Of a stretch of DNA of 64,000 nucleotides, positions 10,799 through 40,100 are shown piece by piece (position 1 is the stretch's first letter; each line of letters begins with the position of its first letter). The stretch is from Nocardioides mesophilus (GTDB lineage: Bacteria; Actinomycetota; Actinomycetes; Propionibacteriales; Nocardioidaceae), in assembly GCF_014395785.1 (NCBI RefSeq), contig NZ_CP060713.1:3500501-3564500 (forward strand), read 5' to 3'. A program made the translations under genes and the position numbers. The notes below the pieces were generated by a model. That model was given only the letters and a program-made list of their open reading frames with translations. It did no database searches and was not told where the DNA came from.

Positions 10799-11326
10799 AT
10801 GGGTGGGGACCAGCCGGACAACATCGACGACAACATCGAGCGGCGCTCGTTCCTGAAGCGCGCGGCCGTCGTGGCGGGCGTGACCGTCTGGTCCGCGCCG
10901 ACGGTGCAGTCGCTGACCGCGCCGGCGTTCGCGACCGGCACGGCTTCGTGCGCGCCGGGGCGGGTCATCCGGTTCAAGTACGACGTGGGGACGAACTCGT
11001 TCGACAGCGGCGCCGCCGGTGGCGGGGGGGCCAGCTGGTGCCTGCCGGACGGGTACGCCGACGCCGACCACTCCATCTTCGGCTCCGACAGCACGGGGTG
11101 CGCGGTGGTGGAGGGGACGTCGTACTGCGTCACGGTCGCGATCTCCGCCGACGGCAAGACCGCCCAGGTCACGGTGCCCGCGGGGGCCGTGATCGAGGGT
11201 CTCCAGGCGAAGGCCGGAGCCTCCTTCAACGGCGAGTGCGGGGACATGGACTACCAGACCTCGAACACGGCGGTCGTGCAGATCACCAAGCAGATCTCCT
11301 ACGTCGCCGGAGTCATCTGCGTCTGA
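10799..11326 (+). CDS. Tat-exported small cysteine-containing protein, function unknown
   Basis: 175-residue protein that I do not recognise. The N-terminus is a clear Tat signal: ERRSFLKR at about residue 15, a hydrophobic VVAGVTVW stretch and a cleavage-like APAFA-TG near residue 41. The mature part is small, glycine-, serine- and threonine-rich, and has six cysteines, which suggests disulfides outside the cell. ATG 10799 has AGGGGAG five bases upstream; a GTG at 10781 is less likely. It ends 28 bases inside the convergent HPr-kinase-like gene. Its place opposite the HPr-kinase/PqqD genes makes it a candidate client of that module. Confidence 0.72.
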   Translation: MGGDQPDNIDDNIERRSFLKRAAVVAGVTVWSAPTVQSLTAPAFATGTASCAPGRVIRFKYDVGTNSFDSGAAGGGGASWCLPDGYADADHSIFGSDSTGCAVVEGTSYCVTVAISADGKTAQVTVPAGAVIEGLQAKAGASFNGECGDMDYQTSNTAVVQITKQISYVAGVICV

Positions 11327-12231
11327 GCTCGCGGCTCGCCCACGGCGACGCCTCGGGGCGGTCTTCCCCCCGCCGCCCGGCCGGGGTGGTGGGCGAGCCC
11401 GCGGACACGGTCCACCAGCGCGGAGTCGGGCACCGCACCGACCGCGCCGGCGGGCACCTCGGTGAGCACGGCAGCGAGCATCCTGAGGGCGCTGCCGGCG
11501 CCGAGGGTGTCGGCGTTGACCACTGATCCGAAGCCCGCCTGCACCGCGAGGGCCGGCCGGATCCGCTCCGCGTCCTCTGCGGTCCGGAGCACCCAGGATC
11601 CCAGGCGGACCGCTCGGGTCGGCCGGCTGCGGTCGACCAGCTCGAGCGCATCCACGTCGAGCAGGTGACTGCGCGCGGTGCGCAGGTCGAGGCCCTCGGC
11701 CAGCAGGCGCTCCTGGTGCAGCAGCAGACGGCCGTGCCAGACCTCCGGCAGCAGCACCGCGGTGCTCCCGCGCACGACGGCCGTGGCTCGCACGGCGAGC
11801 AGACCCACGGTGTCGGGATGCCCGGCCGAGTCCAGGAGGTCGAGCAGGTCGGCCAGCAGCCGTTCGGGTTCGCGGCGCCGGGCGACGACCTCGTGGTCGC
11901 GGTAGACGAGGTGCAGGCCGCGCCGCGGGGCCGCCGTCCGGTCCGCGACGGCCAGCTCCACGGAGAAGTGCGCGGGCACCACGCCGTCCAGAGTGGGCAC
12001 CCTCCTGGGCCGCAGCAGACCTTCCACGACCGAGTCGGCGCTCTCGTCACCGGTGGTCCGGACCCCGACGACGCGCTGGCCGACCCGGACCGCCCTGGTC
12101 GGCCGCCACACCCGGGACCGGTCGAGCCGCGCCAGGCAGGGCGTCCGTCGCTGCGGGGCGATCCTCAGGCCAGATGCAGTCTCCGGGACCGGTCGCGGCC
12201 CGGCCGCGCGGGCCCCGGACGTCGACGTCAC
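11299..12231 (-). CDS. degenerate HPr-kinase-like protein lacking the P-loop
   Basis: 310-residue protein with no certain family match. Its middle third lines up by eye with the HPr-kinase-like protein two genes upstream: the segment AVVRGSTAVLLPE (about 151-163) matches AVRAGLTLLLPG there. Where that protein has GDQERGKTT, this one has EVWHGRLLL, so the ATP-binding lysine and threonine are absent. I infer a non-catalytic paralogue, perhaps a partner or binding subunit. GTG start overlaps the PqqD-like stop (GTGA). It is the last gene of the 13-gene minus-strand operon and overlaps the convergent Tat-exported protein gene by 28 bases. Confidence 0.6.
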   Translation of the reverse strand: MTSTSGARAAGPRPVPETASGLRIAPQRRTPCLARLDRSRVWRPTRAVRVGQRVVGVRTTGDESADSVVEGLLRPRRVPTLDGVVPAHFSVELAVADRTAAPRRGLHLVYRDHEVVARRREPERLLADLLDLLDSAGHPDTVGLLAVRATAVVRGSTAVLLPEVWHGRLLLHQERLLAEGLDLRTARSHLLDVDALELVDRSRPTRAVRLGSWVLRTAEDAERIRPALAVQAGFGSVVNADTLGAGSALRMLAAVLTEVPAGAVGAVPDSALVDRVRGLAHHPGRAAGGRPPRGVAVGEPRAQTQMTPAT

Positions 12232-12527
12232 GAGCCGGCCACCCGGTCGACCAGGTCGAGGTCGAGGAGCCGGTCCGCGAACGCGGTGACGTCGGCGTGC
12301 ACGTCGGAGCTGCGCCCGCCGAAGACCCGGGCCAGCTCGTCGCTCACCTCGCCGAGGGTGGTGACGCCGTCGAGCGCCGCCCAGATCAGGCTGCCCACCG
12401 GGTCCAGCAGGTGCAGGCTTCCGCTGCGGCTGTCGTAGACCACGGTCTCGCCGTCCACCTCGACCTCCTCCACGATCGGCGTGCCGTGCCGGCGGAGCAC
12501 CAGCGCGTCGTCCGGGACAGGTGACAT
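12228..12527 (-). CDS. PqqD-like peptide-binding protein (copy 1)
   Basis: 99-residue protein of the PqqD family, a winged-helix fold that in other systems binds a leader peptide and presents it to a modifying enzyme. Visible marks are a beta-rich start (ETVVYDSRSGSLHLLDPVG) followed by IWAALDGVTTLGEVSDELA and a C-terminal helix. ATG start shares one base with the upstream HPr-kinase-like stop (TGATG) and the stop overlaps the next GTG, so the three are translated together. The partner is presumably one of the two kinase-like proteins; what peptide it binds is unknown. Confidence 0.8.
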   Translation of the reverse strand: MSPVPDDALVLRRHGTPIVEEVEVDGETVVYDSRSGSLHLLDPVGSLIWAALDGVTTLGEVSDELARVFGGRSSDVHADVTAFADRLLDLDLVDRVAGS

Positions 12528-13516
12528 CACAGCTCCCTCATCAACGTCTGGCTGACCAGGCCCTCGATCGCCTCGACGGCACCGTCGAGGTCTCCGATGC
12601 GCAGCCGCACGACGTCGGCTCCGCGGACCAGGTCGGCGGCCACCCGGAGGTTCCGGGCGGGGTGCTCCTCGAAGTGGAAGCTGCACAGCGCCAGGTCGCG
12701 CACCGCCTCGGCCGCGCTCAGGCGGATCGACTCCGTGCGGCTGCCCGCGAGGAAATGGGGGAAGACGATCAGTCGCGGCGGACGCGCGGGTCCGCGTGCC
12801 ACGTTGGCGCCCAGCTGTCGGGCGGGCACCTGGCACTGGTCGTTGGGCGTCGTGCTCCCCGGAGGCGGGGACGGCAGGCCGCAGTCGCGGAACAGTCCCC
12901 AGGACCCCGGGTCGAGGCTGAGCGCCTTGGGGAACAGCTCGACGTGCAGGGTGGCGGGGTGCACCGCGGTCGCCTCGTCGGTGACGTAGTCGTAGCCCTC
13001 CCGCAGCAGACCGGCCACCGTCGTGGTCTTGCCGCGTTCCTGGTCGCCCGGCAGCAGCAGCGTGAGGCCGGCGCGGACCGCGGCTGCCGCGTGGAAGACC
13101 ACGTGGGTGCTCGAGGTGCTGTCGATCATGCGCTGGTTCACGTGCCAGGCGAGGAACCGCACCAGGGTCCGCGGGTCGGAGGCGACCCGCACCCGTCGGT
13201 CGTCGAAGTACAACGCGTACGGCGGCCCCTGCGGCGAGCCGAGCAACCGGTAGCAGGGCAGCTCGCCGTGCCGGTGCGCCCGCACCCGCAGCGAGGAGGT
13301 GATCGGCCCGAGCAGCTCGTCGAGACCGCTCGGCTCGCAGAGCACCTCGAAGGAGTGGCCGCCGGCCCGACACTCCCCGCTGCGCCAGCTCCAGTGGCGC
13401 CTGTCGAGCTCGTGCACCGGTGCGAGACTGGGAAAGCCCGGGTCGGCGGCGACCCCCGGGTGCGGACCCGGACGTCGGATCCGCCCCCGACGGGCCTCAG
13501 ACGTCGAGGGGCTCAC
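12527..13516 (-). CDS. HPr-kinase-like protein (HprK-related)
   Basis: 329-residue protein with the HPr kinase/phosphorylase type of nucleotide site: GDQERGKTT at residues 157-165, preceded by VVFHAAAAVRAGLTLLLP, where the histidine matches the conserved HprK histidine region. The rest is divergent, and no HPr protein is encoded nearby, so carbon control is unlikely. Related kinases occur next to PqqD-like and nucleotidyltransferase genes in exopolysaccharide and lasso-peptide loci, which is the arrangement here. The GTG start at 13516 overlaps the upstream LuxR gene by 20 bases; later starts near residue 34 are possible. Confidence 0.72.
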   Translation of the reverse strand: MSPSTSEARRGRIRRPGPHPGVAADPGFPSLAPVHELDRRHWSWRSGECRAGGHSFEVLCEPSGLDELLGPITSSLRVRAHRHGELPCYRLLGSPQGPPYALYFDDRRVRVASDPRTLVRFLAWHVNQRMIDSTSSTHVVFHAAAAVRAGLTLLLPGDQERGKTTTVAGLLREGYDYVTDEATAVHPATLHVELFPKALSLDPGSWGLFRDCGLPSPPPGSTTPNDQCQVPARQLGANVARGPARPPRLIVFPHFLAGSRTESIRLSAAEAVRDLALCSFHFEEHPARNLRVAADLVRGADVVRLRIGDLDGAVEAIEGLVSQTLMREL

Positions 13517-14174
13517 GACGGTCGACCTCGACCTCGACCGCGACCTCGAACCCGATCTCGTTGGCCAGCGCCGCCGCCTCGACCCGTGAGCGCACGCCGA
13601 GCTTCGTCAGCACGTGCCGGATGTGCGTCTTCGCGGTCTCCGGCGCGATGTCGAGCGTCCGGGCGATCTCGGTCTGGTCGCAGCCCGCGCCGAGCAGCGC
13701 CAGCACCTGGCGCTCGCGTTGGCTGAGTCGCTCGACGGCCGGTCGGCTGTGCGGACCACGGCGCTGCCGGTCGATGAGACCGTGCAGCACGCCGACGAGC
13801 AACGTGGTGGAGACGTACATGTCGCCCTCGGCGACCGTGCGGCACGCCCGCACGACCCCGGGCAGCCCCTCCCGGTGGGAGACCACGGCATCTGCCCGCG
13901 CCTCCACCAGCTCCAGGGCTCCCGGCTGGCTGTCGGTCAGGAAGATGCTCCGGGTCCGCGACTCGTGCAACGCCTCGCAGAGCTGGCGCAGCGCGTGCGA
14001 GGGCAGCTGGACGTCGACGACGGTGAGGTCCGGGTGCGCCCGGGCGACGACCGCCAGGCACTGGGCCGCGCTGGTCACCGGCTCGATGACCGAGCCGGCG
14101 AACTCGCGGCCGAGAGCCAGTCGCAGACCGAGCAGGACGATGGGGCGGTCGGCCGCCACGGCGATACGCATCAT
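13497..14174 (-). CDS. LuxR-family response-regulator-like protein (1)
   Basis: 225-residue transcription regulator. The N-terminal half looks like a receiver domain, with a candidate phosphoacceptor in LTVVDVQLP near residue 53. The C-terminal half is a LuxR-type helix-turn-helix, LSQRERQVLALLGAGCDQTEIARTL followed by ETAKTHIRHVLTKLGV. The ATG at 14174 overlaps the stop of the next LuxR gene (ATGA). There is no histidine kinase nearby. It is co-transcribed with the HPr-kinase-like and PqqD genes and probably controls this locus or the facing exported protein (inferred). Confidence 0.85.
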   Translation of the reverse strand: MMRIAVAADRPIVLLGLRLALGREFAGSVIEPVTSAAQCLAVVARAHPDLTVVDVQLPSHALRQLCEALHESRTRSIFLTDSQPGALELVEARADAVVSHREGLPGVVRACRTVAEGDMYVSTTLLVGVLHGLIDRQRRGPHSRPAVERLSQRERQVLALLGAGCDQTEIARTLDIAPETAKTHIRHVLTKLGVRSRVEAAALANEIGFEVAVEVEVDRREPLDV

Positions 14175-14797
14175 GCCCCTGTCCTCGCCTCGACCCCGAG
14201 GGCGCGCAGGTCCTGCAGTCGCGAGCGCATGATGCCGCTCCCGCGGGCAAGGGCTGCGGCTGCGTGTCGGTTCGTGACGTCGAGCTTGGTCAGCGAGTGC
14301 TGCACGTGTGCGCGGGCCGTGTGCGGACTGATCCGCAACCGGTCCGCGATCTCGTCGTCGTGGTCGCCCAGGGCGACCAGCGCGATCACCTCGCGCTCCC
14401 GCTCGGTGAGCTCCACGAAGGGGTCGTCGACGACCGGGCCGCCGAGGTGCGGCGTCGGCCGCCCCTCGACGAGGCTGCGGATCGCCTGCGCGAAGGTGGG
14501 TTGCGGGCTGTCCCAGCTGACCACCGCGGTGGCGCTGACGGCCCGGCCCAACGCGATCGTCCAGGGTTCGACCGCGTCCACGAGCAGCAGCGTCGGCAGC
14601 TTCCACGGCTGGGTCTGCTTGGCGAGGTCCTGCGCGGTGAACCGTTGCCCGCGCGGCAGTGCGATCACGATCGCCACCGACGAGTGCAACGGCGCGGCCA
14701 CCGGGGTCAGGTGCAGACTCTCGAGGGTCAGCGCCAGGCAGTCGGCCTCCAGGGTCGACCACGGGGCCACGACCACGGACGGTTTCTTGGTTCTCAT
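14171..14797 (-). CDS. LuxR-family regulator with degenerate receiver (2)
   Basis: 208-residue regulator. The C-terminal helix-turn-helix is clear (LTEREREVIALVALGDHDDEIADRL, then TARAHVQHSLTKLDV). The N-terminal 120 residues have receiver-like length and strands, but the strand after which the phosphoacceptor should sit reads LPTLLLVDAVEPW and the acidic pocket is not evident, so it may not be phosphorylated. ATG start one base after the DegT stop; its stop overlaps the LuxR 1 start. A pair of unlike LuxR proteins translated together suggests they may act as heteromers. Confidence 0.82.
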   Translation of the reverse strand: MRTKKPSVVVAPWSTLEADCLALTLESLHLTPVAAPLHSSVAIVIALPRGQRFTAQDLAKQTQPWKLPTLLLVDAVEPWTIALGRAVSATAVVSWDSPQPTFAQAIRSLVEGRPTPHLGGPVVDDPFVELTEREREVIALVALGDHDDEIADRLRISPHTARAHVQHSLTKLDVTNRHAAAALARGSGIMRSRLQDLRALGVEARTGA

Positions 14798-14798
14798 C

Positions 14799-15995
14799 TC
14801 ACGTCACATCCCCCTCGGTGGCACGGATCTGGTCGGCGTGCCGGGCGATGCGTGCCACCGCGTCGCGCATCCCGGTCATCTGCTGGTCGGTCATGTGGGA
14901 CCACAGCGGCAGCGAGAGCACGCGCTGGGACATCTCCTCGGTCACAGGGAGGTCCCGCTGCGGAAGGTGCCGGTAGGCACGCTGCTCGTGGATGCTCGGG
15001 CTGTAGTAGCGCCGGGTGTCGATGCCCTCCGCGTCGAGTGCCCGGGCGAACCCGGGCACGTCCAGCCCCAGCACGTCCGGGTCGACCACCACCGTCAGGT
15101 CCTTGTACGTCGAGACGTCCCCCTCCTCGACGACGGGGCGGCTGAGCCCCCGCAGGTCCGCGAGCCCGGACCAGAAGTCGTCGACGAGCTCGTTGCGTCG
15201 CGCGACGTGCTCGTCGAGGAACCGCAGGGAGTGCAGCCCGATGGCGGCGTGCAGCTCCGACATCCGCGCGTTCAGGCCGGCGAAGAGGCAGTCGTAGTCG
15301 CCGGGGTTGCCGTAGTTGCGGCCGAGGCGGACGGTTTCGGCGAGCCCCGCGTCGTTGGTCGCGACCAGGCCGCCCTCGCCGGCCACCATCACCTTGGTCG
15401 GGCTGAGGCTGAAGACCTCGGCCGTGCCGAAGCCGCCCACGGGACGGCCCGCCCGGCTCGATCCCAGGCCGTGGGCGGCGTCGAAGACGAGAGGGACGCC
15501 GGCCTCGCGCGCCACCTCCTCGAGCGCCTCCGTGCGGCACGGTGTGCCGTAGATGTGCGTCGCGGTGATCGCGGACGCCCCGTCGACCCCGGCCCAGACC
15601 TCGTCGGGGTCGACGCACAGCGTGCCGGCCTCGATGTCGACGAAGCGGGGTTCCGCCCCCGCCCACATCACGGCGTGCGCACTGGCCGAGAACGTGAAGC
15701 TCGGCATCACGACGGCGTCGTGGACGCCGAGCGCCTGCAGGGTCAGCGCCAGCCCGCTGGTGCAGCTGCTCACGGCGACCACGTGCGCGACGCCGAGACG
15801 CTCCGCGACACGCTCCTCCAGCTCGGCCACCGTCGGCCCGCTCGTGAGCAGTCCCGACTCCAGGATCTGTCCCAGCCTCCGCTCCAGCGCGGGAAGGTCG
15901 GGCAGGGTCGGTCGCATCAGGGCTAGGCCCTCGGGGAACGCCGGGGTCCCTCCGAGCGTCGCGGGTGCGTCGGCACTCTTCTGCAGGATCGTCAC
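14799..15995 (-). CDS. DegT/DnrJ/EryC1 family sugar aminotransferase
   Basis: 398-residue PLP enzyme that transaminates nucleotide-linked keto sugars. The PLP lysine is in VFSLSPTKVMVAGEGG, the aspartate in LVFDAAHGLGSS, and the N-terminal half shows SSCTSGLALTLQALGV. The GTG start at 15995 has GAGGAG upstream and overlaps the upstream stop (GTGA). It could act on the keto product of the CapD/PglF-like dehydratase in the same operon. A second DegT protein at 43.4 kb competes for that role, so the assignment is open. Confidence 0.85.
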   Translation of the reverse strand: MTILQKSADAPATLGGTPAFPEGLALMRPTLPDLPALERRLGQILESGLLTSGPTVAELEERVAERLGVAHVVAVSSCTSGLALTLQALGVHDAVVMPSFTFSASAHAVMWAGAEPRFVDIEAGTLCVDPDEVWAGVDGASAITATHIYGTPCRTEALEEVAREAGVPLVFDAAHGLGSSRAGRPVGGFGTAEVFSLSPTKVMVAGEGGLVATNDAGLAETVRLGRNYGNPGDYDCLFAGLNARMSELHAAIGLHSLRFLDEHVARRNELVDDFWSGLADLRGLSRPVVEEGDVSTYKDLTVVVDPDVLGLDVPGFARALDAEGIDTRRYYSPSIHEQRAYRHLPQRDLPVTEEMSQRVLSLPLWSHMTDQQMTGMRDAVARIARHADQIRATEGDVT

Positions 15996-17356
15996 GCCGG
16001 TATCTCCTCATGAGTGGTGTGTCGGACCGTCCCCGCACGGAAGGTGCGGTCCAGCGGCAGGGCAAGGAACACGAGCACGAACGGCAGCACCTGCACGCGT
16101 TGGCGGGTGAGGATGCCGAAGTTCGAGAAGTTGGAGAACGCGTAGACGAACAGCAGCGTGTACACCAGGCACATGAGCAGGTACGGCTGACGTCTGAGTC
16201 GGCGAGGCAGCCCGCGCAGGGTCGGCACGGCCCGCAGGGTGAGAAGCATGAGCACCGCCCCCTCCGTGGCCACGATCAGCGACTGCGCGTTGTCCGCCTC
16301 GAAAACGAAGGGTCGGAACAGCACCGAGACAGTGGCGACCGGGAGGTCGGCCGGGCTGTTGACGACCGTCGGCGTGAACTCCGAGCCGCCTTCGCCGGTG
16401 CGGTGCTGGGTGTCCCGGATCGCCGCGTCCACGTTGGAGACCGTGACCGACTCGACGTTGAGGAAGGTGGCGGCGCGTGCCACGATGAGCGCTCCGAGCA
16501 GCATCAGGACGGCCAGCACGCCGACCTTGACCACCGGGGTCAGTGGAGTGGCCGCCCGTGTGGACTTGCGCAGGAACATCGCGGCCGTCAGACCGACGAA
16601 CAGCGCGGCACTGATGTGTGGCCGGACCAAGGAAGTCATCGTCAGCCCGATGGCCGCGGGCAGCAGCCAGTGCCGCACCCCGGTCAGCAACCGCGCCGAC
16701 CCGAAGGCCGTCAGGCCGATGCCCATCGTGATCCAGGCCTCCTTGCCGAGCCCGGAGGGCCAGAACAGCATCGAAGGCAGCAACAGCACCAGGACGGCGT
16801 ACCGGTGGTAGTTGCCGTCGGGCACGGCCACTCGGAACGCCCGGTAGAAGAAGTAGCAGCCCCAGAAGCTGAGGGCCGCGAAGATGGCGAAGGCGATGTA
16901 GATGCTGGTGCCGAACGCGGTGTAGATGAGGCCGGTCAGCATCCGCACGAACCCCGACCCGATGAAGCTGTGCCCGAGGTTGGCGTCGAGGAAACCGAGT
17001 CGGTAGCTCACGGCCAGCCGTCCCCCCTCGGCGTCGTAGACCGAGGCGTCCGACTCGCCGTTGTAGAGCACGAAGGCCATCAGGTAGCGCGCAACCGTCG
17101 CCAGCACCTTGGCGGCCAGGGCCCACAGCAGCAGCCGGGCGATGAACGGGTCCTGCTCGGCGCGGCCCGCACGGACCACGAGGTGCAGGGTGAGCAGCAG
17201 GAGCGCCGGGATGACGACCAGGGCGCCGAAGAGGTCGTAGCGGTCCCGGCCGCCCGCCCACGCCAGCAGCAGCGCGTACCCGCCCACGGCGAGGACGCCC
17301 GCCACCTGGGCGGCGCCCAGGCGGACGGGGTCACCGGTCCGCAGTCGTAGAAGCAT
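15992..17356 (-). CDS. polytopic membrane protein, candidate polysaccharide polymerase
   Basis: 454-residue integral membrane protein with about ten or eleven hydrophobic segments, a middle segment with GKEAWITMGIGLTAFG and a C-terminal TRQRVQVLPFVLVFLALP. A large soluble loop (about residues 300-360) holds SEFTPTVVNSPADLP. Similar proteins are found in actinobacterial exopolysaccharide loci without a proven role; a Wzy-like polymerase is plausible, a flippase less so because the segment number and pattern do not fit Wzx. ATG at 17356 is two bases after the upstream stop. Confidence 0.65.
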   Translation of the reverse strand: MLLRLRTGDPVRLGAAQVAGVLAVGGYALLLAWAGGRDRYDLFGALVVIPALLLLTLHLVVRAGRAEQDPFIARLLLWALAAKVLATVARYLMAFVLYNGESDASVYDAEGGRLAVSYRLGFLDANLGHSFIGSGFVRMLTGLIYTAFGTSIYIAFAIFAALSFWGCYFFYRAFRVAVPDGNYHRYAVLVLLLPSMLFWPSGLGKEAWITMGIGLTAFGSARLLTGVRHWLLPAAIGLTMTSLVRPHISAALFVGLTAAMFLRKSTRAATPLTPVVKVGVLAVLMLLGALIVARAATFLNVESVTVSNVDAAIRDTQHRTGEGGSEFTPTVVNSPADLPVATVSVLFRPFVFEADNAQSLIVATEGAVLMLLTLRAVPTLRGLPRRLRRQPYLLMCLVYTLLFVYAFSNFSNFGILTRQRVQVLPFVLVFLALPLDRTFRAGTVRHTTHEEIPA

Positions 17357-17358
17357 GC

Positions 17359-18438
17359 TCAGAACACCTCGAGGTCGCCGAGGGGAAGCTGCCAGGTCCG
17401 GGGCGTCAGCACGTCGACGTCGAGGCGGCGGCGCGGGTTGACCACCAGGCCCACGCCCTGCCCGGGCACCGGCAGGAACCCCGGCGCAGCACCGAGGCCG
17501 GCCTCGACGGAGCCCGGCGGAGTGCGCACCGTGACGTGGTCGGCGCCCGAGTGTCGCGCGGCAGCCAGCAGCCGCCGGCAGGAGCGCGTGTCCCCGTCGG
17601 CGACCACCAGGTCCGCCACCGTGAACTCGGTGAGCGGACCGCGTGCCCGCATCCGGCCGAAGGCCAGTCCCGTCGGACGGCCGCCGGACTCGACGACCAC
17701 GCACCGGTAGTCCAGCCCGGGAGCCTGCCCGTACCGCCACAGCAGGTACTCGAAGCTGCGGGGGGTGTGCAGGCCCGTGGGAGTGCGAGCCTCCTCGAGC
17801 AGCCTGCACACCTCGGGCCCGAGGTCGGCGAGCACCTGCCCGGCCGGCTCGAACGGGCATCGCGGCAGCCGCGCCGGTGAAGCTGGGGCGGGCGGCAGCG
17901 CCCCCCGACGTGCCGCAGAGGCGGTGGTCGCCCGGGCTGCGCGGGCACCGCGGGCCATCGCCACCGGGTGCACCGGTGACAGGCGCACCGGCAGGATGCC
18001 GACGGGCTGCCAGCCCATGGACAGGTAACCGGGGCGGCTGTTGGCGTTCGGCGTGTTGAACACGAGGTCGACGTCGTCGACACGGTCCAGCTCGGCGAGG
18101 AGACCCAGGGTGAGGCGCTTGAAGATGCCGCGGCCCTGGTGGTCCGGCGCCGTCGCGGTGTCGACAGCTCGGACCGCCCGCAACGTGGTGGGCCCGGACT
18201 GCAGCCGCCACCGCAGGAACAGCCGGACCCCGACCAGGCGGTCCTCTGCGTGCGCCAGCAGGCCGGCGGAGACCCCGAACGGGTTGTCACGGTGCTTCCA
18301 CCGGAAGAACTCCGGCGTGTTCTGGCCGGTCGGCCCTCCGCCGAGGGCGTCGGTCATCAACCCCAGGATCTCCGTCTCGTCCTCCTGGTGGGCCGGGCGG
18401 ACGCTGATCTCGGTGGCGCCGGCATCGGTCGTGGTCAC
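17359..18438 (-). CDS. GNAT-family N-acetyltransferase
   Basis: 359-residue acyltransferase. The acetyl-CoA loop is VDTATAPDHQGRGIFKRL at about residues 90-107, preceded by an N-terminal ISVRPAHQEDETEILGLM. The protein is longer than a single GNAT fold (about 150 residues), so the C-terminal half may be a second, degenerate fold. The GTG start overlaps the nucleotidyltransferase stop (GTGA). A neighbouring nucleotidyltransferase and PqqD-like protein suggest it modifies either a sugar or a peptide in this locus; the acceptor is unknown. Confidence 0.75.
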   Translation of the reverse strand: MTTTDAGATEISVRPAHQEDETEILGLMTDALGGGPTGQNTPEFFRWKHRDNPFGVSAGLLAHAEDRLVGVRLFLRWRLQSGPTTLRAVRAVDTATAPDHQGRGIFKRLTLGLLAELDRVDDVDLVFNTPNANSRPGYLSMGWQPVGILPVRLSPVHPVAMARGARAARATTASAARRGALPPAPASPARLPRCPFEPAGQVLADLGPEVCRLLEEARTPTGLHTPRSFEYLLWRYGQAPGLDYRCVVVESGGRPTGLAFGRMRARGPLTEFTVADLVVADGDTRSCRRLLAAARHSGADHVTVRTPPGSVEAGLGAAPGFLPVPGQGVGLVVNPRRRLDVDVLTPRTWQLPLGDLEVF

Positions 18439-19565
18439 TGCTCGCTCCTGTTCGCGCGGATCTCGGTGACGCCGTGACGGAGCCGGCTCATCAGGCCCGA
18501 GTGCCGGTCCTCCAGGTAGGAGCGCTCGGGCAGCGCCAGCGACAGCACGTAGCGCGGCCGCTGCCGGATCGGGAGGGTGCGCACCGCCGCGAAGGAGCGG
18601 GCCGCGTAGCTCGAGGACGCGCCGTAGACCGAGAGGTGCGACGCCTCGCGGCGGGTGCTCCGGTGGGCGCTGGCCCAGGCGCTCGCCTGCAGCACGTCGG
18701 CGAGCCGAAGCTCGTTCCAGCTGGTCCGGATCGCTCGCGCCACCACGGCCTCGCCCCGGCTGTTGCGCATCAGCTCGCGGAAGCGGCTCCAGTCGATCTC
18801 CCGAGTCAGCAGGATCTGCGCCACGTCACGTAACGGCACCAGCTGCGGACGGCGATCGCCGAGCGCGGCGTGGTAGCAGGCGTGCAGCAGCCGGGCCTCG
18901 CGCGGGAGGGCATGCATCGTGCGGCCACCGAGCGAGAACGGCTCGCTCTCGCGCCACAGTCCGTCGAGGTCGAGAAGCCCGCCGTACGGTCCCATCGTGA
19001 AGGTCCGGTGCAGGTCGATCTCCAGCCCGGCGGGCGTCCGCATCGCCGTGCCTTTGCCGAAGCGCTGGTCGAAGCCGGGCCGCGGCTCGGGATAGCTGCG
19101 CCGGCACCCCTGCGACTCCAGCAGCCGGACCGCGTCGTAGTAGGAGGAGCTCGGGACCAGCAGGTCGATGTCCCCGTAGGCGCGGTGGCTGACGTCGGTG
19201 TGGTCGAGCCGGGCCGAGACCGGCCCCTTGAGGACCCGGACCGGGATGCCGGCGTCGTCGAGCGCGGTGACGGTGCGCACCAGGAGGTCCTCCAGCATCA
19301 GGATCGCCACAGAGGCGCGGATGTGGATCTCCTCGGCCTGGTCGCGCTGCTCGTCGGTGACCGGCAGCGCGCCGCCGCGGATCGCCGCCCAGAAGAGCCC
19401 GGTCAGCTTCTGCTGCCGGACGTTCGCGTGCAAACCGGCGAAGGCGGGGTCGCCCAGGGGTTCCGAGGGCAGCTCGAGCACCGTCCCGGCGAGCCCGTAG
19501 GCCGCGACGGCACGCACGGCAGGGGAGTAGTGACCGCTCTCGGACCAGGTCGGCACGTCACTCAT
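18435..19565 (-). CDS. nucleotidyltransferase family protein (NTP_transf_5 type)
   Basis: 376-residue protein. The nucleotidyltransferase signature is RVLKGPVSARLDHTDVSHRAYGDIDLLV at about residues 110-140, with the metal-binding DIDLL; EIDLHRTF supplies a later acidic site. Such proteins accompany PqqD-like, HPr-kinase-like and asparagine-synthase genes both in lasso-peptide loci and in exosortase-type polysaccharide loci. Their substrate here is unknown. The stop overlaps the GNAT start, and the start overlaps the upstream PqqD-like stop by eight bases. Confidence 0.78.
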   Translation of the reverse strand: MSDVPTWSESGHYSPAVRAVAAYGLAGTVLELPSEPLGDPAFAGLHANVRQQKLTGLFWAAIRGGALPVTDEQRDQAEEIHIRASVAILMLEDLLVRTVTALDDAGIPVRVLKGPVSARLDHTDVSHRAYGDIDLLVPSSSYYDAVRLLESQGCRRSYPEPRPGFDQRFGKGTAMRTPAGLEIDLHRTFTMGPYGGLLDLDGLWRESEPFSLGGRTMHALPREARLLHACYHAALGDRRPQLVPLRDVAQILLTREIDWSRFRELMRNSRGEAVVARAIRTSWNELRLADVLQASAWASAHRSTRREASHLSVYGASSSYAARSFAAVRTLPIRQRPRYVLSLALPERSYLEDRHSGLMSRLRHGVTEIRANRSEQ

Positions 19566-19854
19566 CCCCTTCGACCACGCCGTGGTTCACCAGCTCGTGG
19601 AGCGCGCACTCCACCTCGTCGGCCACCTCCACCCGGGGGTCCGGCTCGAAGGCCGCGACGATCTCGGTCATGGTCGGCCGCGAGTCCAGAAGGCGCCACA
19701 GCTCGGCGGTTCCGCCGCCGAGGACCAGCGGGACCCGGTCCTCCCCGCGGGGCAGCAGCACCACGTGACGACCGGTGTCACGCCACAGCACGCCATCGGC
19801 GCGCCGGTAGCGTGCGGGGAAGCTGCCCCGCTGCAGTCCCCCGTCGTGGGTCAC
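19558..19854 (-). CDS. PqqD-like peptide-binding protein (copy 2)
   Basis: 98-residue small protein with the PqqD-type layout: a beta-rich first half (GRHVVLLPRGEDRVPLVLGGGTAELWRLLD), then RPTMTEIVAAF and a C-terminal helix ending in LVNHGVVEGDE. It is diverged from copy 1 at 12.2 kb, so the two probably serve different partners, this one the nucleotidyltransferase. GTG start overlaps the WbpA-like stop (GTGA). The family call rests on length and pattern more than on strict motifs. Confidence 0.68.
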   Translation of the reverse strand: MTHDGGLQRGSFPARYRRADGVLWRDTGRHVVLLPRGEDRVPLVLGGGTAELWRLLDSRPTMTEIVAAFEPDPRVEVADEVECALHELVNHGVVEGDE

Positions 19855-34163: not shown

Positions 34164-37100
34164 TCAGTGCGCATCTGGTACCTCGCTCGCCGGGCTGCCG
34201 AGCACCCCGTCGTGGCTGAAGCCGATCGCCTGGACGGCGGGCGCCCCCGCCGTCGCGGTCATCGTCAGCCGGTACTGCAGGTAGCGCCCCTCGGTCCCGA
34301 TCCGGCTTCCGGAGCCGGTCAGCGTCTTCCAGCCGCTCCACGTGCCGTCCGGATCGGGCCTGCTCCCGGTGCGCACCTGCACCGTGAGCGACGCGCCGGC
34401 CGGCAGGTCGGCGATCCAGGTGGCCCGGTCCCAGGTCACCTTCTGCCGCGAGTCGAGCACGTGGGAGGTCAGCGTGCCCGTCCCGCCGCCCTGCAGGGTG
34501 ACGGTGCCGTGGGCCTGATCGGTGACCACGGTGGTCCCGGTGAGGGAGCCGCTGCGGAAGTCGGCGGCCGCCTGGTCGGCGACACCGGGCGGCGCGGTCG
34601 CGACGGGCACTTCGGACCGCTGCCGTCCGAGGTTGCCGGCCTGGTCCTGGGACTCCACCCGTACCCAGAGCCGAGCGTCGGGAGCCAGCTCGGTGAGCAC
34701 GACCACGTGCTGTCGCGTGAGCTGGTCGTCACGGCGCAGCTGGTCGAGGCGCTGCGCGCTGCTCCCGAAGCGGACCAGCGACGTCGCGGGCTCGTCCGTC
34801 GTCCAGCTCACGCGTGCGGTTCCGTCGGGCAGCGGTGCCACCGCGACGTCCGAGACCGCGGGAGCGGTCGCGTCCGCGGCGCTGGTGGTGAACCGGGCCG
34901 GCGGCTGGCCGGTCGCTGGCCAGGTCTGGGTCTGGCCGCCGCCGTCGACGGAGCGCACCCGGTAGTAGTAGGTGCGGTCCGCGGACAGGTCGTCCACGGT
35001 CAGGCTGTGCGAGCTGGTGAGGCCGCCCTGGGTCTGGGTGGCGCTCAGGTCGGTCGGGCTGGTGCCCAGCAGCAGCGTGCCGGTGGACGGCTGGCTGCTC
35101 TGCCAGGCCAGCGAGGCGGAGTCCGCGGTCACGTCACTGGTCCGGGCGGTGGTCAGGGCCGGCGCCTGGGCACCGCTGGTGTAGGACGCGGTGAACGTTC
35201 CCGAACCAGCCGGGAACAGGGCGTACTCCTGGCCCTTGATCGTGCTGCGCGTGAAGGTCACCGGCGTGCCCGCACGCGAGATCGAGCCGAGCACGGATCC
35301 GCCGGGACCTGCGGTGGGCAGCATGACCGTGAGCCGGTTCGCACCGGCGCCGACCGCGGTGCCGAAGGTGAGGGTGGAACCGCTCCACGCCACGTTCTGG
35401 AACGAGGATGCGTTCCGTCCGTCCAGCCAGGTCAGCATCTGCTTGGCGGTCACCATCGGTACGCCGGCGTTCTTCGCGCTGGTCAGCAGCGAGCTGCTCT
35501 CGAAGGTCGACGCGTTGTCGGTGTGCATGTTGACGGTGAACGCGCCGTAGTAGCCCAGTGGCCCCGTTGCGTTGGCGAACAGCGTGTCCGCCGTGTAGGG
35601 GTAGCTCTGGCCGGACTCGTCGGTCATCGAGGTGTTCCCCTGGAAGACGTCGATGAGGGACCCGTCCGTGTCGGTGAACCGCATCGGCAGGCCTGAGCCG
35701 TTCATGAAGCCGGGGCGGTCCTGGATCCAGGTTCCTGGCCAGTAGTAGTAGTTGGCGTCGTACCGCATCCCGTGGTCCAGCTCGACCTTGGGCTGGGAGG
35801 CCCAGTCGCTCCACACCATGCAGTGGAACCGGTTCGTCGTCGGCTTTGCGATGCCCGTGTAGCGCGACTGCCACGCCGCCAGGTCGCTGTCGTAGGTGCT
35901 GCTCAGGTCGGCCGTGGAGGCGAAGTCGCGGCAACCGTTCTGCGGGTGGAGCGCCACCTCGAAGCCGTCCGCGGTGTAGCTCACGGCCTGGGCGTTGGTC
36001 AACGGTGAGCTCGGGTAGACGTAGGACGTCGAGCGCAGGCACTGCCAGTCCGCCACCGAGCAGCCCGCCGGGCTGTTGGCCTTGTAGGTGTCGAAACGCC
36101 CGGCCGTGCCGCCGCCGGCGTGGTCGTCACCGGTGGCGACCACGACAGCTTTGTACTGTCCCGGGAAGTACCAGAACCGCGGCACCGGCAGCTTGTCGCG
36201 CGCCATCACCGTGATCAGGTTGGCCAGCAGCCGCTGCTGCTCGTCGGCCTGCGGCACCGCCACCTTGCCGAGGTTGACCCAGTCGGTCGCCGAGCCCCGA
36301 AGAACTGGTCGTCGGAGCGGATCGGCGCGGAGCCGTCGCGTTCCTGGCCGGCCCATGCCGGGTTCCCCTGCCGGGTCTGGATCACCGAGCTCGCCAGGTC
36401 GAAGGCGAAGGCCGCGGCCTGACCGCCGCTGGTGCCGACGTCGTTGAGGGTGACCGCCGGGAAGGCCGTTGCCGCAGTGGCGCTCGAGTAGAGCCGGGCG
36501 ACCTGCTGCGCGCCGGCCAGCGTGTAGTTCTTCGCCGAGCCGTGGAACTGCAAGGTGTCCGTGGCGATGCCGGCGCCTGGACCGGTCGCGGCGTCGACGG
36601 CCAGGTAGCCGTTCGACGTCGTACCGCTCTGCGTGGTGACGCCGAGCAGGCTGTCCAGCTGGGCGTCCGGTCGCATGGCGACCAGGTTCCCCCCGCCGCT
36701 CACCCAGGTGCTCAGCGCGCTGAGCTGCGTGGAGGTGAGCGCGCCCGTGCCGAGCACCACGACGTCGAAGTTGGCGAGGTTGGTGGAGTTCAGACCGGTG
36801 GCGTCGATGGAGGTGAACTCGTTGAGCCCCTCCGCGCGCAGGATCTCCGCGAGGTACTTGGTGGACGGAGCGGCCGAGCTGGTCACCAGTCCGATCCGGC
36901 CGCCGGGCCCCTGGTCAACGGGCGGCGGAGGGGGCGCGGCGGTGGTGAAGGTCCAGCTGACCGGGTCCATCACGTTGCCGGCGGCATCGGTCGCCGAGCT
37001 CACGGCGGCGGTGTAGTCGGTGCTCGCGGCGAGCGCCGCCGCGGGCGTGAAGGTGGCGGTGTTCGTCGAGGACGAGTACGTGGTCGTCCCGCTCACCGTG

Positions 37101-40100
37101 GTGCCGGCACCGGTCTTCAGGGTCATCGCCACCGACGACCCGGTGACCGGCTCGTCGAACTGCGCGGTCACGGTCGTCGAGCTCGAGACGCCGGTGGCGC
37201 CGGCAGCGGGGCTCCGGGCGATCACCGAGGGCTTCGTCGTGTCGGTCGCGGTGGTCGAGAAGACGACGTCGACCCAGTAGTTCTCGGAGTTGTAGGTGCT
37301 CCCGGGGTAGGTCCCGTCCGGCCCGTAGCCGTAGACCCCGTTGCCGCCGTCGGTGCCGTTCTGCAGGGCGGTGAGCGGTCCGCGGGTGGTGGCGCTGGTG
37401 GCGAAGTACTGCGCGGTCGTGGAGTACCTCCCGACCGGCGCGTGGTAGGAGACGACGTACGTCGTGTTGGCGACGATCCGGATCGGCGAGGCGAAGGTGG
37501 CCTGCTGCCAGCCGGAGGCGCTCTCGTTGCTGAAGCTGACCTGGCCGAGCCGGGTCCCGGCGGTGTTCCAGACGCTGCCGGTGTGCGGGCCGGCGTTGGT
37601 CGTGCCGCCCTTGTAGAAGCGCACTCCGGTGGCGTAGCCGTCCACCGCGGAGCGGAACTTCACCCCCAGCTCCACCGAGTTCGTGTCGCTGTCGGTGCCG
37701 GCGGGGGTGGCCGTCGAGGGCCAGATCGTGCAGGGACACCCGTCGGCGGTGGCCGCCGTCGTGAAGCTCCAGCTGACCGGGTCCATCACGTTGCCGGCCG
37801 CGTCCCTGGCACCGCTCAACGCGACGTCGTAGCTGGTGTTCGTGGCCAGCGGCGCCAACGGGGTCAGGGTCACGGTGCTGGTCGTGGAGCTGTACGTCGT
37901 GGTGGCCGACACCGGGGTGGTGCTCCCGGACGCGGTGAGCGTCATGGTGATCGAGCTCTCCACGACCGGCTCGCTGAGCTGGGCCGTCGGGCTGGTCCCG
38001 CTCGGCACGCCGGTGGCACCCGGCGCCGGGGTCCGGGCGACCACGGTCGGCTTGCTGGTGTCGGGTCCGCCGGTGTCGTAGACGACGTCGACCCAGTAGT
38101 TCGTGGAGTTGTAGGTGCTCGTCGGGAAGGTCCCTGCGGGTCCGTAGCGGTACACGCCGTTGCCGCCGTCGGTGCCGTTCTGGAGTGCGGTGAGCGGTCC
38201 GCGGGTGGTGGCGCTGGTGGCGAAGTACTGCCCGGTCGTGGAGTAGCCGCCGTTGGGTGCGTTGTAGGAGGCGATGTAGGTGGTGTTCGCGGTGACGGCG
38301 ACAGGCGTGGAGAAGGTGGCCTGCTGCCAGCCGGAGGCGCTCTCGTTGCTGAAGGTGACCTGCCCGAGCCGGGTTCCAGCGGTGTTCCAGAGACTGCCGA
38401 CGTGGGTGCCGGTGTTGGCGGTGGCCTTGTAGAACCGGATCCCGGTGATCACCCCGTCCTGGGCGGCGCGGAACTTCACTCCCAGCTCCACGGCGCGCTT
38501 CTCGGTCTGGGTGACGGCGGGGGTGGCCGTCGAGGGCCAGATCGTGCACGGGCAGGTGCCGGCGGTGGCGGCGGTGGTGGTGAAGGTCCAGGTGACCGGG
38601 TCCATGACGTTGCCGGCGGCGTCGCTGGCGCCGCTGACGGTGGCGGTGTAGGTGGTGCCGGCGGTCAGGTTGGCGCCGGGGGTGAAGGTGGCGGTGGTGT
38701 TCGCCGTCGAGTAGGTGGTGGTGCCGGTGACCGCGGTGCCGGCTGCGTTCTTGAGCGTCATGGTGACCGAGGAGCCGGTGACCTGCTCGCTGAAGGTGGC
38801 GGTGACCGGGCTGGCGACCGGAACGTCGGTGGCGCCCGACGCGGGGGTCCGATCGACCACGGTCGGCTTGCTGGTGTCGGGTCCGCCGGTGTCGTAGACG
38901 ACGTCGACCCAGTAGTTGGTCGAGCCGTAGGTGCTGGACGGGAAGCTCCCCGCAGGTCCGTAGTTGTAGACGCCGTTGCCGCCGTCGGTGCCGTTCTGGA
39001 GTGCGGTGAGCGGTCCGCGGGTGGTGGCGCTGGTGGCGAAGTACTGCGCGGTCGTGGAGTAGCGGCCGTTGGGTGCGTTGTAGGAAGCCACGTAGGTGGT
39101 GTTCGCGGTGACGGCGACAGGCGTGGAGAAGGTGGCCTGCTGCCAGCCGGAGGCGCTCTCGTTGCTGAAGGTGACCTGGGCCAGCCGGGTCCCGGTGCGA
39201 CTCCAGAGGCTGCCGACGTGGGTGCCGGTGTTGGCGGTGGCCTTGTAGAACCGGATCCCGGTGATCACCCCGTCCTGGGCGGCGCGGAACTTCACCCCCA
39301 GCTCGACCTGGCCGGTGTCGGTGTCGGTGGCGGCCGGGGTGGCCGTCGAGGGCCAGATCGTGCACGGGCAGGTGCCGGCGGTGGCGGCGGTGGTGGTGAA
39401 GGTCCAGGTGACCGGGTCCATGACGTTGCCGGCGGCGTCGCTGGCGCCGCTGACGGTGGCGGTGTAGGTGGTGCCGGCGGTCAGGTTGGCGCCGGGGGTG
39501 AAGGTGGCGGTGGTGTTCGCCGTCGAGTAGGTGGTGGTGCCGGTGACCGCGGTGCCGGCTGCGTTCTTGAGCGTCATGGTGACCGAGGAGCCGGTGACCT
39601 GCTCGCTGAAGGTGGCGGTGACCGGGCTGGCGACCGGAACGTCGGTGGCGCCCGACGCGGGGGTCCGATCGACCACGGTCGGCTTGCTGGTGTCGGGTCC
39701 GCCGGTGTCGTAGACGACGTCGACCCAGTAGTTGGTCGAGCCGTAGGTGCTGGACGGGAAGCTCCCCGCAGGTCCGTAGTTGTAGACGCCGTTGCCGCCG
39801 TCGGTGCCGTTCTGGAGTGCGGTGAGCGGTCCGCGGGTGGTGGCGCTGGTGGCGAAGTACTGCGCGGTCGTGGAGTAGCGGCCGTTGGGTGCGTTGTAGG
39901 AAGCCACGTAGGTGGTGTTCGCGGTGACGGCGACAGGCGTGGAGAAGGTGGCCTGCTGCCAGCCGGAGGCGCTCTCGTTGCTGAAGGTGACCTGGGCCAG
40001 CCGGGTCCCGGTGCGACTCCAGAGGCTGCCGACGTGGGTGCCGGTGTTGGCGGTGGCCTTGTAGAACCGGATCCCGGTGATCACCCCGTCCTGGGCGGCG

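Follow-up and report, generated by a model that had tools for sequence, protein, structure and literature searches.

The window, i.e., the whole stretch of 64,000 nucleotides of Nocardioides mesophilus DNA that was analyzed, was originally predicted to carry five overlapping minus-strand genes that end tail-to-tail with a gene for a Tat-exported protein, and all six genes were confirmed. They are listed here with their neighbors, all gene starts being predicted:

10799..11326, plus strand: Tat-exported cargo protein, 175 amino acids, signal RRSFLKRAAVVAGVTVWSAPTVQSLTAPAFA
11299..12231, minus strand: degenerate kinase paralogue without the P-loop lysine; proposed non-catalytic partner
12228..12527, minus strand: PqqD-like protein; proposed RiPP recognition element (RRE) for the Tat signal
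12527..13516, minus strand: HprK-like (HprK_rel_A-related) kinase; proposed modifying enzyme
13497..14174, minus strand: LuxR-family regulator, N-terminal part response-regulator-like
14171..14797, minus strand: LuxR-family regulator
14799..18438, minus strand: DegT-type aminotransferase, membrane protein without Pfam match, and acetyltransferase; context between the two halves
18435..19565, minus strand: NTP_transf_5 nucleotidyltransferase (PF14907, 109.5 bits); proposed later modifying enzyme
19558..19854, minus strand: second, weaker PqqD-like protein adjoining the nucleotidyltransferase (Pfam 17.4 bits, below the cut-off of 23.4)

Adjacent genes of the minus-strand run at 11299–14797 share 1 to 20 bases, and the end of the second kinase-like gene overlaps that of the Tat gene at 11299–11326. 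A codon-based gene caller favored starts at 13417 for the kinase and at 12111 for the second kinase-like protein, later than those listed. The genes at 14799..18438 show synteny with loci L054 and L055 and are regarded as context, outside the claimed modification step. The nucleotidyltransferase and the second PqqD-like gene, on the same strand, were absent from the original prediction.

The kinase has a fold of the PEPCK/HprK class, Foldseek matching it to PEPCK (E 4.9e-5) and to HprK/P (E 2.6e-3). Residues H142, G162, K163, T165, and E181, which include the Gly-Lys pair of the P-loop (G162-K163), are invariant among 12 relatives. The catalytic pair ends in Asp-Glu, in contrast to the Asp-Asp of lasso kinases. 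Against TIGR04352 (HprK_rel_A) the kinase scores 68.7 bits, under a cut-off of 200 that was exceeded in none of 396 genomes of the phylum. In a close-relative scan of the named genomes the window kinase retrieved no relative; a Jiangella-type kinase retrieved seven loci, among which only that of Jiangella asiatica (L215), the source of the query, shows by profiles the set of Tat, PqqD, kinase, and GT2 genes. The second kinase-like protein aligns with the kinase over 172 columns in a profile–profile comparison (probability 95.7%, E 8.7e-9) and has lost the Gly-Lys of the P-loop; judged by its sequence, it is the degenerate paralogue that had been predicted.

The PqqD-like protein passes the cut-off of PF05402 (46.5 versus 23.4 bits) and falls just under that of TIGR04353, "HPr-rel-A system PqqD" (32.8 versus 35 bits). 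Its sole PDB matches up to E 1 are LppB (9x8z, 4.1e-4), TbiB1 (5v1u, 0.011), and PbaB1 (9x90, 0.15), all of them RREs. LppB is the RRE of linear polyphosphorylated peptides (LPP; PMC13381572). RREs of this type bind [Y/W]xxPx[L/V/I/F/A], and the Asp that fixes the Tyr in LppB is retained in 28 of 47 sequences. A structure model of a PqqD–kinase fusion was dropped as docking evidence, the PqqD part being too poor.

The signal of the cargo protein contains the twin arginines, a hydrophobic stretch, and an AxA-type site, and scores 16.2 bits against TIGR01409 on its own (cut-off 16.7) and 17.7 bits when scored with its frame neighbors. It also contains WSAPTV, an RRE-type motif. Cleavage is likely between AFA and TGTASC, which places Ser/Thr directly after the site. 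Among 49 signals, two of which look spurious (L079 and the L049 row at 1809; excluded from the 44-row cargo count), 44 have Ser/Thr at mature positions +1 to +4; the internal comparison, made with +9 to +12 of the same rows rather than with ordinary exported proteins, gives 26 of 49. The cargo frames measure about 100–530 amino acids and include stretches rich in Cys or Gly; an LPxTG-like C-terminal motif is present in 14 of 44. A PDB sequence search with the window Tat protein returned no match.

The predicted co-occurrence of kinase, PqqD-like protein, and Tat protein proved to be conserved. A Tat-signal gene (at least 15 bits, six-frame search with a profile built from 13 discovery signals) lies within 4.3 kb in 27 of 40 test loci, which had been found by the kinase alone, versus none of 20 control regions (19.9 kb each, at hand-chosen, non-random round coordinates in 11 kinase-carrying genomes). 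The test regions represent 41 kinase places with E 1e-30 or better outside the discovery and weaker sets, two further kinase matches (G1078 and G1009) having been left out. The positive loci span 11 families (11 of 15 when counted by family), with 10 of the 40 test loci belonging to a single family; including the discovery loci, linkage is seen in 15 families, with f26 included only on the strength of a gene 6.7 kb away. At 12 bits, the counts are 28 of 40 test loci versus 1 of 20 controls, and 11 of 14 discovery loci (including L066 at 6.7 kb; the window is counted separately). Weaker loci have a Tat signal in 5 of 26 cases (L049, L079, L082, L084, and L088). A PqqD-like domain accompanies the kinase in 39 of 40 test loci versus 1 of 20 controls. 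The Tat signal is fused to the kinase in L168 and L170, and PqqD to the kinase in L062, L217, and L218; the smallest set, in L065, consists of Tat, PqqD, and kinase. Among 245 genomes of the family, nine have kinase matches. Three of these are strong (E below 1e-70), and the same three genomes, and no others, have Tat protein matches, with the genes adjacent there, in agreement with the original prediction. Taken together, these sequence patterns support the view that the kinase belongs to a single system with the PqqD-like and Tat proteins. Thirteen test loci show no Tat signal within reach at the 15-bit level. Six or seven of these lie on short contigs or at contig edges, and in L162, L166, and L171 a signal can be made out by eye; test loci L159, L165, and L178 and discovery loci L060 and L062 have long flanks with no Tat gene nearby.

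Other ways of counting Tat genes were set aside. The codon-based gene caller (14 of 40 test, 0 of 20 control, and 7 of 14 discovery loci within 5 kb) was superseded by the six-frame profile search because it missed low-complexity cargos. A first text pattern was positive within 5 kb in 20 of 40 test loci and also yielded three control rows resembling shadow frames. A relaxed pattern produced 61 rows, including many shadow frames, and 11 apparently spurious control rows; it was kept for reading cargos only.

With an RRE-binding motif present in the Tat signals, the earlier suggestion that peptides are bound by PqqD-like proteins on behalf of modifying enzymes takes concrete form. With a candidate finder that ignores W, [Y/W]xxPx[L/V/I/F/A] was found in 32 of 48 distinct candidates near a kinase versus 0 of 16 controls, the motif-free 16 of 48 being a mixture of false candidates and true exceptions. 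The test loci alone give 22 of 36, and counting without deduplication gives 40 of 59 versus 0 of 19. Among 29 Tat signals read in six kinase-carrying genomes, the 24 that lie outside the system, at least three of which look like wrong frames, all lack the motif; one system row (L239) was read on the wrong strand. Under our cleavage rule, 21 of 49 signals have W at −16, and the window signal has it at −15. The residues by which LppA is held are Y-16 and P-13 (PMC13381572). W is missing from the signal of L065, which has SVATPLV, and likewise from the fusions in L168 and L170.

An NTP_transf_5 gene is present in 19 of 40 test loci; GT2 takes its place in one test family (f116) and in L058, and 14 of 40 test loci have neither. 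In the window and several other loci the set sits amid polysaccharide genes. The proposed tie to polysaccharide production thus holds commonly but not generally, since L065, L172, L173, L179, and L181 are stand-alone sets among apparent housekeeping genes, with no polysaccharide genes.

It seems fairly probable that a RiPP-type modification system acts here on a Tat-exported protein whose Tat signal doubles as the leader. From what is observed, namely the genomic linkage, the fusions, the motif, and the fold and key residues of the kinase, we infer the following route, including the binding, catalysis, substrate, modification site, sugar, and order of steps. First, the adjacent PqqD-like protein, acting as RRE, would bind the W-x-x-P-x-[V/I/L] of the cargo Tat signal and then, in the cytoplasm, present the cargo to the HprK-like kinase. 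This enzyme would phosphorylate a Ser or Thr, most likely within the first few residues past the signal-peptidase site, the P-loop-less paralogue serving as a putative non-catalytic partner. A sugar may next be added to the phosphate, in many loci by an NTP_transf_5 enzyme, which often has a PqqD-like neighbor of its own, and in one family by a GT2 glycosyltransferase instead. Finally, Tat would export the modified protein, signal peptidase would cut off the leader, and anchoring by a sortase would follow in some genomes. Of the earlier idea that modification precedes Tat export, linkage and motif speak in its favor, whereas phosphorylation is deduced and some kinase loci have no Tat gene that was found. 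A more specific proposal is that in actinobacteria RRE, HprK-like kinase, and nucleotidyltransferase or GT2 put a phosphate-linked sugar on surface-destined proteins in the cytoplasm, before Tat export; in polysaccharide loci such a protein would act as carrier or primer, joined to the polysaccharide by a phosphodiester at Ser/Thr near the mature N-terminus. This is put forward tentatively and is rather doubtful; it is held less likely because GT2 is confined to one test family and L058.

The same genes might instead control export: a PqqD-like chaperone would hold the Tat signal, and the kinase, or an ATPase derived from it, would time release to Tat, with no need for a covalent mark on the mature cargo. 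Other Tat substrates are known to have chaperones for their signal peptides, the motif sits within the signal peptide, and the set may comprise just Tat, PqqD, and kinase, as in L065. This explanation is unlikely, however, given that the catalytic residues of the kinase are invariant, that NTP_transf_5 would be left unexplained, and that relatives of known function are protein or peptide kinases (PMC13381572, PMC9266682). If the kinase acted on a sugar, a lipid, or another small molecule of polysaccharide synthesis, its adjacency to Tat and PqqD genes would stem from shared regulation or gene mobility. The surrounding polysaccharide genes and the kinases of L159, L165, and L178, near which no Tat gene was found, would suit such a substrate, yet the stand-alone sets, the Tat–kinase and PqqD–kinase fusions, and the RRE motif in the Tat signal make it quite improbable.

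A further reading is that the Tat protein, instead of being a modified surface protein, gives rise to a small peptide, a true RiPP like LPP, which a protease would cut free once the precursor has been exported. The enzyme types match those of LPP and paeninodin clusters, and LPP precursors are likewise conserved N-terminally with variable C termini (PMC13381572). The size of the cargo frames and the LPxTG-like motif of 14 of 44, typical of surface proteins, argue against it, as does the absence of the lasso B2 protease Transglut_core3 (PF13471), which the original prediction had not seen nearby and which has no match in the whole genome that carries the window; a small peptide product is very improbable.

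Should modification of the Tat-exported protein itself be borne out, RiPP-style leader recognition would extend from small peptides to whole secreted proteins, and two readers, RRE and Tat, would share one signal peptide. It would provide a genetic route to phosphorylated, perhaps phosphoglycosylated, actinobacterial surface proteins, a function for kinase, PqqD, and nucleotidyltransferase genes so far named by family only, and a portable tag in the form of a Tat signal by which a fused cargo would be modified. It would also open to testing how HprK-like kinases are connected with capsule-type loci, a point that the LPP authors do not settle (PMC13381572).

In searches of the open-licence PubMed Central literature, no account of Tat with an RRE and an HprK-like kinase was found. 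HPr kinase/phosphorylase shares the fold class and the P-loop, whereas PF07475, the canonical HPr kinase model, has no match in this genome, and the partners here are an RRE and a Tat protein. The NCBIfam "HPr-rel-A system" likewise combines a kinase with a PqqD-like protein, and TIGR04352 and TIGR04353 are the best or second-best models for the two window proteins; however, both scores lie under the curated cut-offs and the model names include no Tat protein. The original HPr-rel-A set has a nucleotidyltransferase too. The statement that neither known use of these families explains the locus was too strong, because LPPs and paeninodin-type lasso peptides are made with enzymes of the same kinds. 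Paeninodin-type and pseudomycoidin lasso systems have an HprK-like kinase acting on a precursor Ser, a nucleotidyltransferase linked to hexose on the phosphate, and an RRE binding a W- or Y-containing leader (PMC9266682, PMC8498205). The present loci resemble them in the kinase, the nucleotidyltransferase, and a W-containing leader for a predicted RRE; the cargo, in contrast, is a protein with a Tat signal, and no lasso C protein (asparagine-synthetase-like cyclase) is found among the window genes scanned by Pfam.

LPP peptides also employ an HprK-like kinase and an NTP transferase; LppK phosphorylates core Ser3, the precursors, 35–200 amino acids long, are conserved in the N-terminal region and vary strongly at the C terminus, and the authors regard LPP as restricted to Bacillota (PMC13381572). 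Here, by contrast, the host is an actinobacterium, the leader is a Tat signal with W instead of Y, and the cargo is larger. The full LPP leader motif YxxPxVLxHQxIxFETxxS is absent from the window signal, which reads WSAPTVQSLTAPAFA, and neither a SipW-like (archaeal-type) signal peptidase nor an MsbA-like exporter occurs among the 20 window genes scanned by Pfam. NTP_transf_5 is at most a candidate for the family of PsmN and LppN. Both systems nevertheless have, within polysaccharide loci, a discrete RRE alongside an HprK-like kinase and an NTP transferase, and a conserved leader with [Y/W]xxP, placed about equally far from the cleavage site, ahead of a variable C terminus; LppB is the best PDB match of the window RRE.

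The six genes of the original prediction are present where it had placed them and overlap as described. The first kinase-like protein is a relative of HprK_rel_A, scoring 68.7 bits with TIGR04352 against a cut-off of 200, and the second is a degenerate paralogue of it. The PqqD-like protein exceeds the Pfam PqqD cut-off and falls narrowly short for the model named 'HPr-rel-A system PqqD'. Because of the sugar-related neighbour genes, the Nocardioides mesophilus set is placed inside a polysaccharide locus:

10799-11326, plus strand: Tat-exported protein (cargo)
11299-12231, minus strand: degenerate kinase paralogue
12228-12527, minus strand: PqqD-like protein
12527-13516, minus strand: kinase
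13497-14797, minus strand: pair of LuxR-type regulators
next on the same strand, in order: aminotransferase, membrane protein (no Pfam match), acetyltransferase
18435-19854, same strand as the kinase: NTP_transf_5 protein and a second, weaker PqqD-like protein
then, same strand: UDP-sugar-type dehydrogenase, protein with a weak ParA/AAA match, Polysacc_synt_2 protein
farther along the window than the Polysacc_synt_2 gene: sugar transferase

A 1962-codon reading frame (36215-42103, minus strand) adjoins the polysaccharide genes, and at 136-8775 genes recognized by eye as an ABC transporter, an oxidoreductase and an aminotransferase form a set that may serve polyamine use.

The predicted structure of the window kinase is unreliable over residues 1-116, weak over 201-240 and mostly confident over the remainder of 131-329. 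PEPCK leads its Foldseek matches (best E 4.9e-5), followed by HprK/P (best E 2.6e-3); the fold as modelled is that of the expected PEPCK/HprK superfamily. Across 12 relatives, H142, G162, K163, T165 and E181 do not vary and D180 hardly does; the last residue pair of the catalytic set is Asp-Glu, compared with Asp-Asp in lasso kinases.

Within the same family, 245 genomes were searched; the window kinase has matches in nine, three of them strong (E < 1e-70), and these three are identical to the three that match the window Tat protein. Two of them, G597 and G711 (loci L054 and L055), are syntenic with the window, with kinase, PqqD-like and degenerate-paralogue genes tail to tail with Tat genes. 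G597 is without the LuxR pair. G711 has an additional PqqD-like gene and encodes two Tat proteins that differ in their mature parts and match the window protein over the signal region. A weaker kinase match, in G606, lies on a 3.4 kb contig (L049, 1-3387) together with PqqD, NTP_transf_5 and a Cys-rich Tat protein whose signal reads WAVPVV. LuxR-type pairs recur next to the kinase or within its locus (window 13497-14797, L055 6590-7836, L056 17250-18550, L059 1585-2690), and L054 carries the same set without one.

The co-occurrence of kinase, PqqD-like protein and Tat protein that had been proposed as a check was found across the phylum. TIGR04352 had matches in 66 of 396 genomes, none over cut-off, and the surroundings of its strongest matches contained Tat proteins with a W-x-x-P signal next to the kinase. 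A Tat-signal profile was built from 13 of these signals and an alignment, A1, from 12 kinases. A1 was searched against sets of 66, 5, 148 and 325 genomes, at E 1e-12 for the first set and 1e-30 for the other three, giving 14, 1, 22 and 18 positive genomes, respectively. Regions around new kinase matches formed a test set of 40, with 20 control regions, each 19.9 kb long and placed at round coordinates, taken from 11 genomes that carry the kinase. At 15 bits, a Tat signal occurred in 27/40 test loci versus 0/20 controls (Fisher 1.5e-7), the test loci not being independent since ten come from one family, f116; the positives span 11 of the 15 families, and the closest signal is at most 4.3 kb from the kinase in all 27. 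At 12 bits, the counts are 28/40 and 1/20. Among the 13 loci negative at 15 bits, L162, L166 and L171 show a signal by eye, seven (L156, L158, L161, L174, L177, L182, L194) lie on sequence of 4.9 to 10.5 kb, in several cases at the edge of a contig, and L159, L165 and L178 have none in 16 kb searched. Discovery loci L060 and L062 lack a signal in 19.9 kb each; L059, another without one, sits at a contig edge.

The linear polyphosphorylated peptides (LPP) of Bacillota, as presented in PMC13381572 (Nature Communications 2026), employ a RiPP recognition element (RRE), the HprK-like kinase LppK, an NTP transferase, a SipW-like peptidase and an exporter, embedded in capsule loci. This RRE group binds [Y/W]xxPx[L/V/I/F/A]; in the precursor LppA, Y-16 and P-13 are the residues held, and Ser3 of the core is phosphorylated by LppK. 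LppB, the RRE of that system, TbiB1 and PbaB1 are the only PDB matches of the window PqqD-like protein up to E 1. W-x-x-P had been spotted in the Tat signals ahead of the comparison with this motif, and Tat-like signals were then searched without using the W in order to avoid circularity. The motif occurred in 40/59 such candidates within 3 kb of the kinase (55 loci, window included) versus 0/19 in controls, both sides including some false Tat signals. With each reading frame counted once, the figures are 32/48 and 0/16 (Fisher 2.5e-6); test loci alone give 22/36 distinct candidates (Fisher 2.8e-5). Across the window, the motif is found in one of four distinct candidates, namely that beside the RRE, and it is absent from 24 other Tat-signal-family rows of six kinase-carrying genomes, at least three of which are wrong-frame reads. 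A simple cleavage rule places the W at -16 in 21/49 signals and at -15 in that of the window; the stand-alone set L065 reads SVATPLV, without W. LppB pocket residues are mostly hydrophobic in the PqqD-like proteins as well, and 28/47 retain the Tyr-fixing Asp.

Accompanying genes vary. With profiles made in this analysis, a PqqD-like domain was found in 39/40 test loci versus 1/20 controls, NTP_transf_5 in 19/40 versus 0/20, GT2 in 8/40 versus 0/20 and the degenerate paralogue in 3/40; no control contained the kinase. Fourteen test loci have neither NTP_transf_5 nor GT2, and both co-occur in one, L193 (NTP_transf_5 match weak). GT2 looks as if it might replace NTP_transf_5, a thin case because all eight GT2 test loci are f116 and just one further locus, discovery locus L058, adds to them. 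Judged by eye from translated neighbours, L065 (Tat, PqqD, kinase consecutively), L172 and L173 (flanked by glyA-like and ATP-synthase-like genes) and L179 and L181 (near uvrA-like genes) are stand-alone sets. The named, cultured strain Jiangella asiatica has a Tat, PqqD, kinase and GT2 set (L215 4475-6496). In L067 (match at 16021) and L068 (9603), the neighbours of a weaker HprK-like gene are secreted proteins with repeats; a 60-aa frame at L067 14585-14767 resembles a peptide precursor, perhaps of another RiPP type. In L058 (17207-18178 and 12630-13790) and L221, HprK-like genes of a second kind accompany asparagine-synthetase-like and ABC transporter genes in clusters that are lasso-like by eye.

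Mature cargo is diverse: Cys-containing (window, L054-L057), Ser/Thr repeats (L172, L173), poly-Ser (L175), Pro-rich (f116) or Gly-rich (L084). An LPxTG-like C-terminal motif, present in 14/44 cargos, is partially supported by anchor models: TIGR01167 is over cut-off for L192 and just under for L169, PF00746 just under for both, and L175 is supported by neither. Ser/Thr occurs within mature +1 to +4, the position equivalent to LPP core Ser3, in 44/49, with 26/49 at +9 to +12 as an internal comparison only. In L168 and L170, from one genus, a single protein carries Tat signal (W of the motif lost), low-complexity linker, LPFTG, hydrophobic stretch, Arg-rich stretch and kinase (TIGR04352, 73 and 83 bits), an order that would keep the kinase cytoplasmic. 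PqqD and kinase share one frame in L217 (744-1880) and L218 (4392-5597), both from Acidimicrobiales assemblies, and in L062 (8865-10070).

Going beyond the genomic linkage and the motif, we infer as the simplest account a RiPP-type system with the Tat signal as leader: the RRE would bind the signal of the cargo, which would be phosphorylated ahead of export, with sugar addition optional. PMC9266682 and PMC8498205 describe a precedent in pseudomycoidin, where a kinase and a nucleotidyltransferase put a hexose on phosphoserine; one review of these leaves the exact role of the nucleotidyltransferase open. The window system is classed neither as LPP nor as lasso, because its signal departs from the complete leader motif of LPP, the N. 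mesophilus genome has no match to the lasso protease family, and its cargo and export route are unlike those of both systems.
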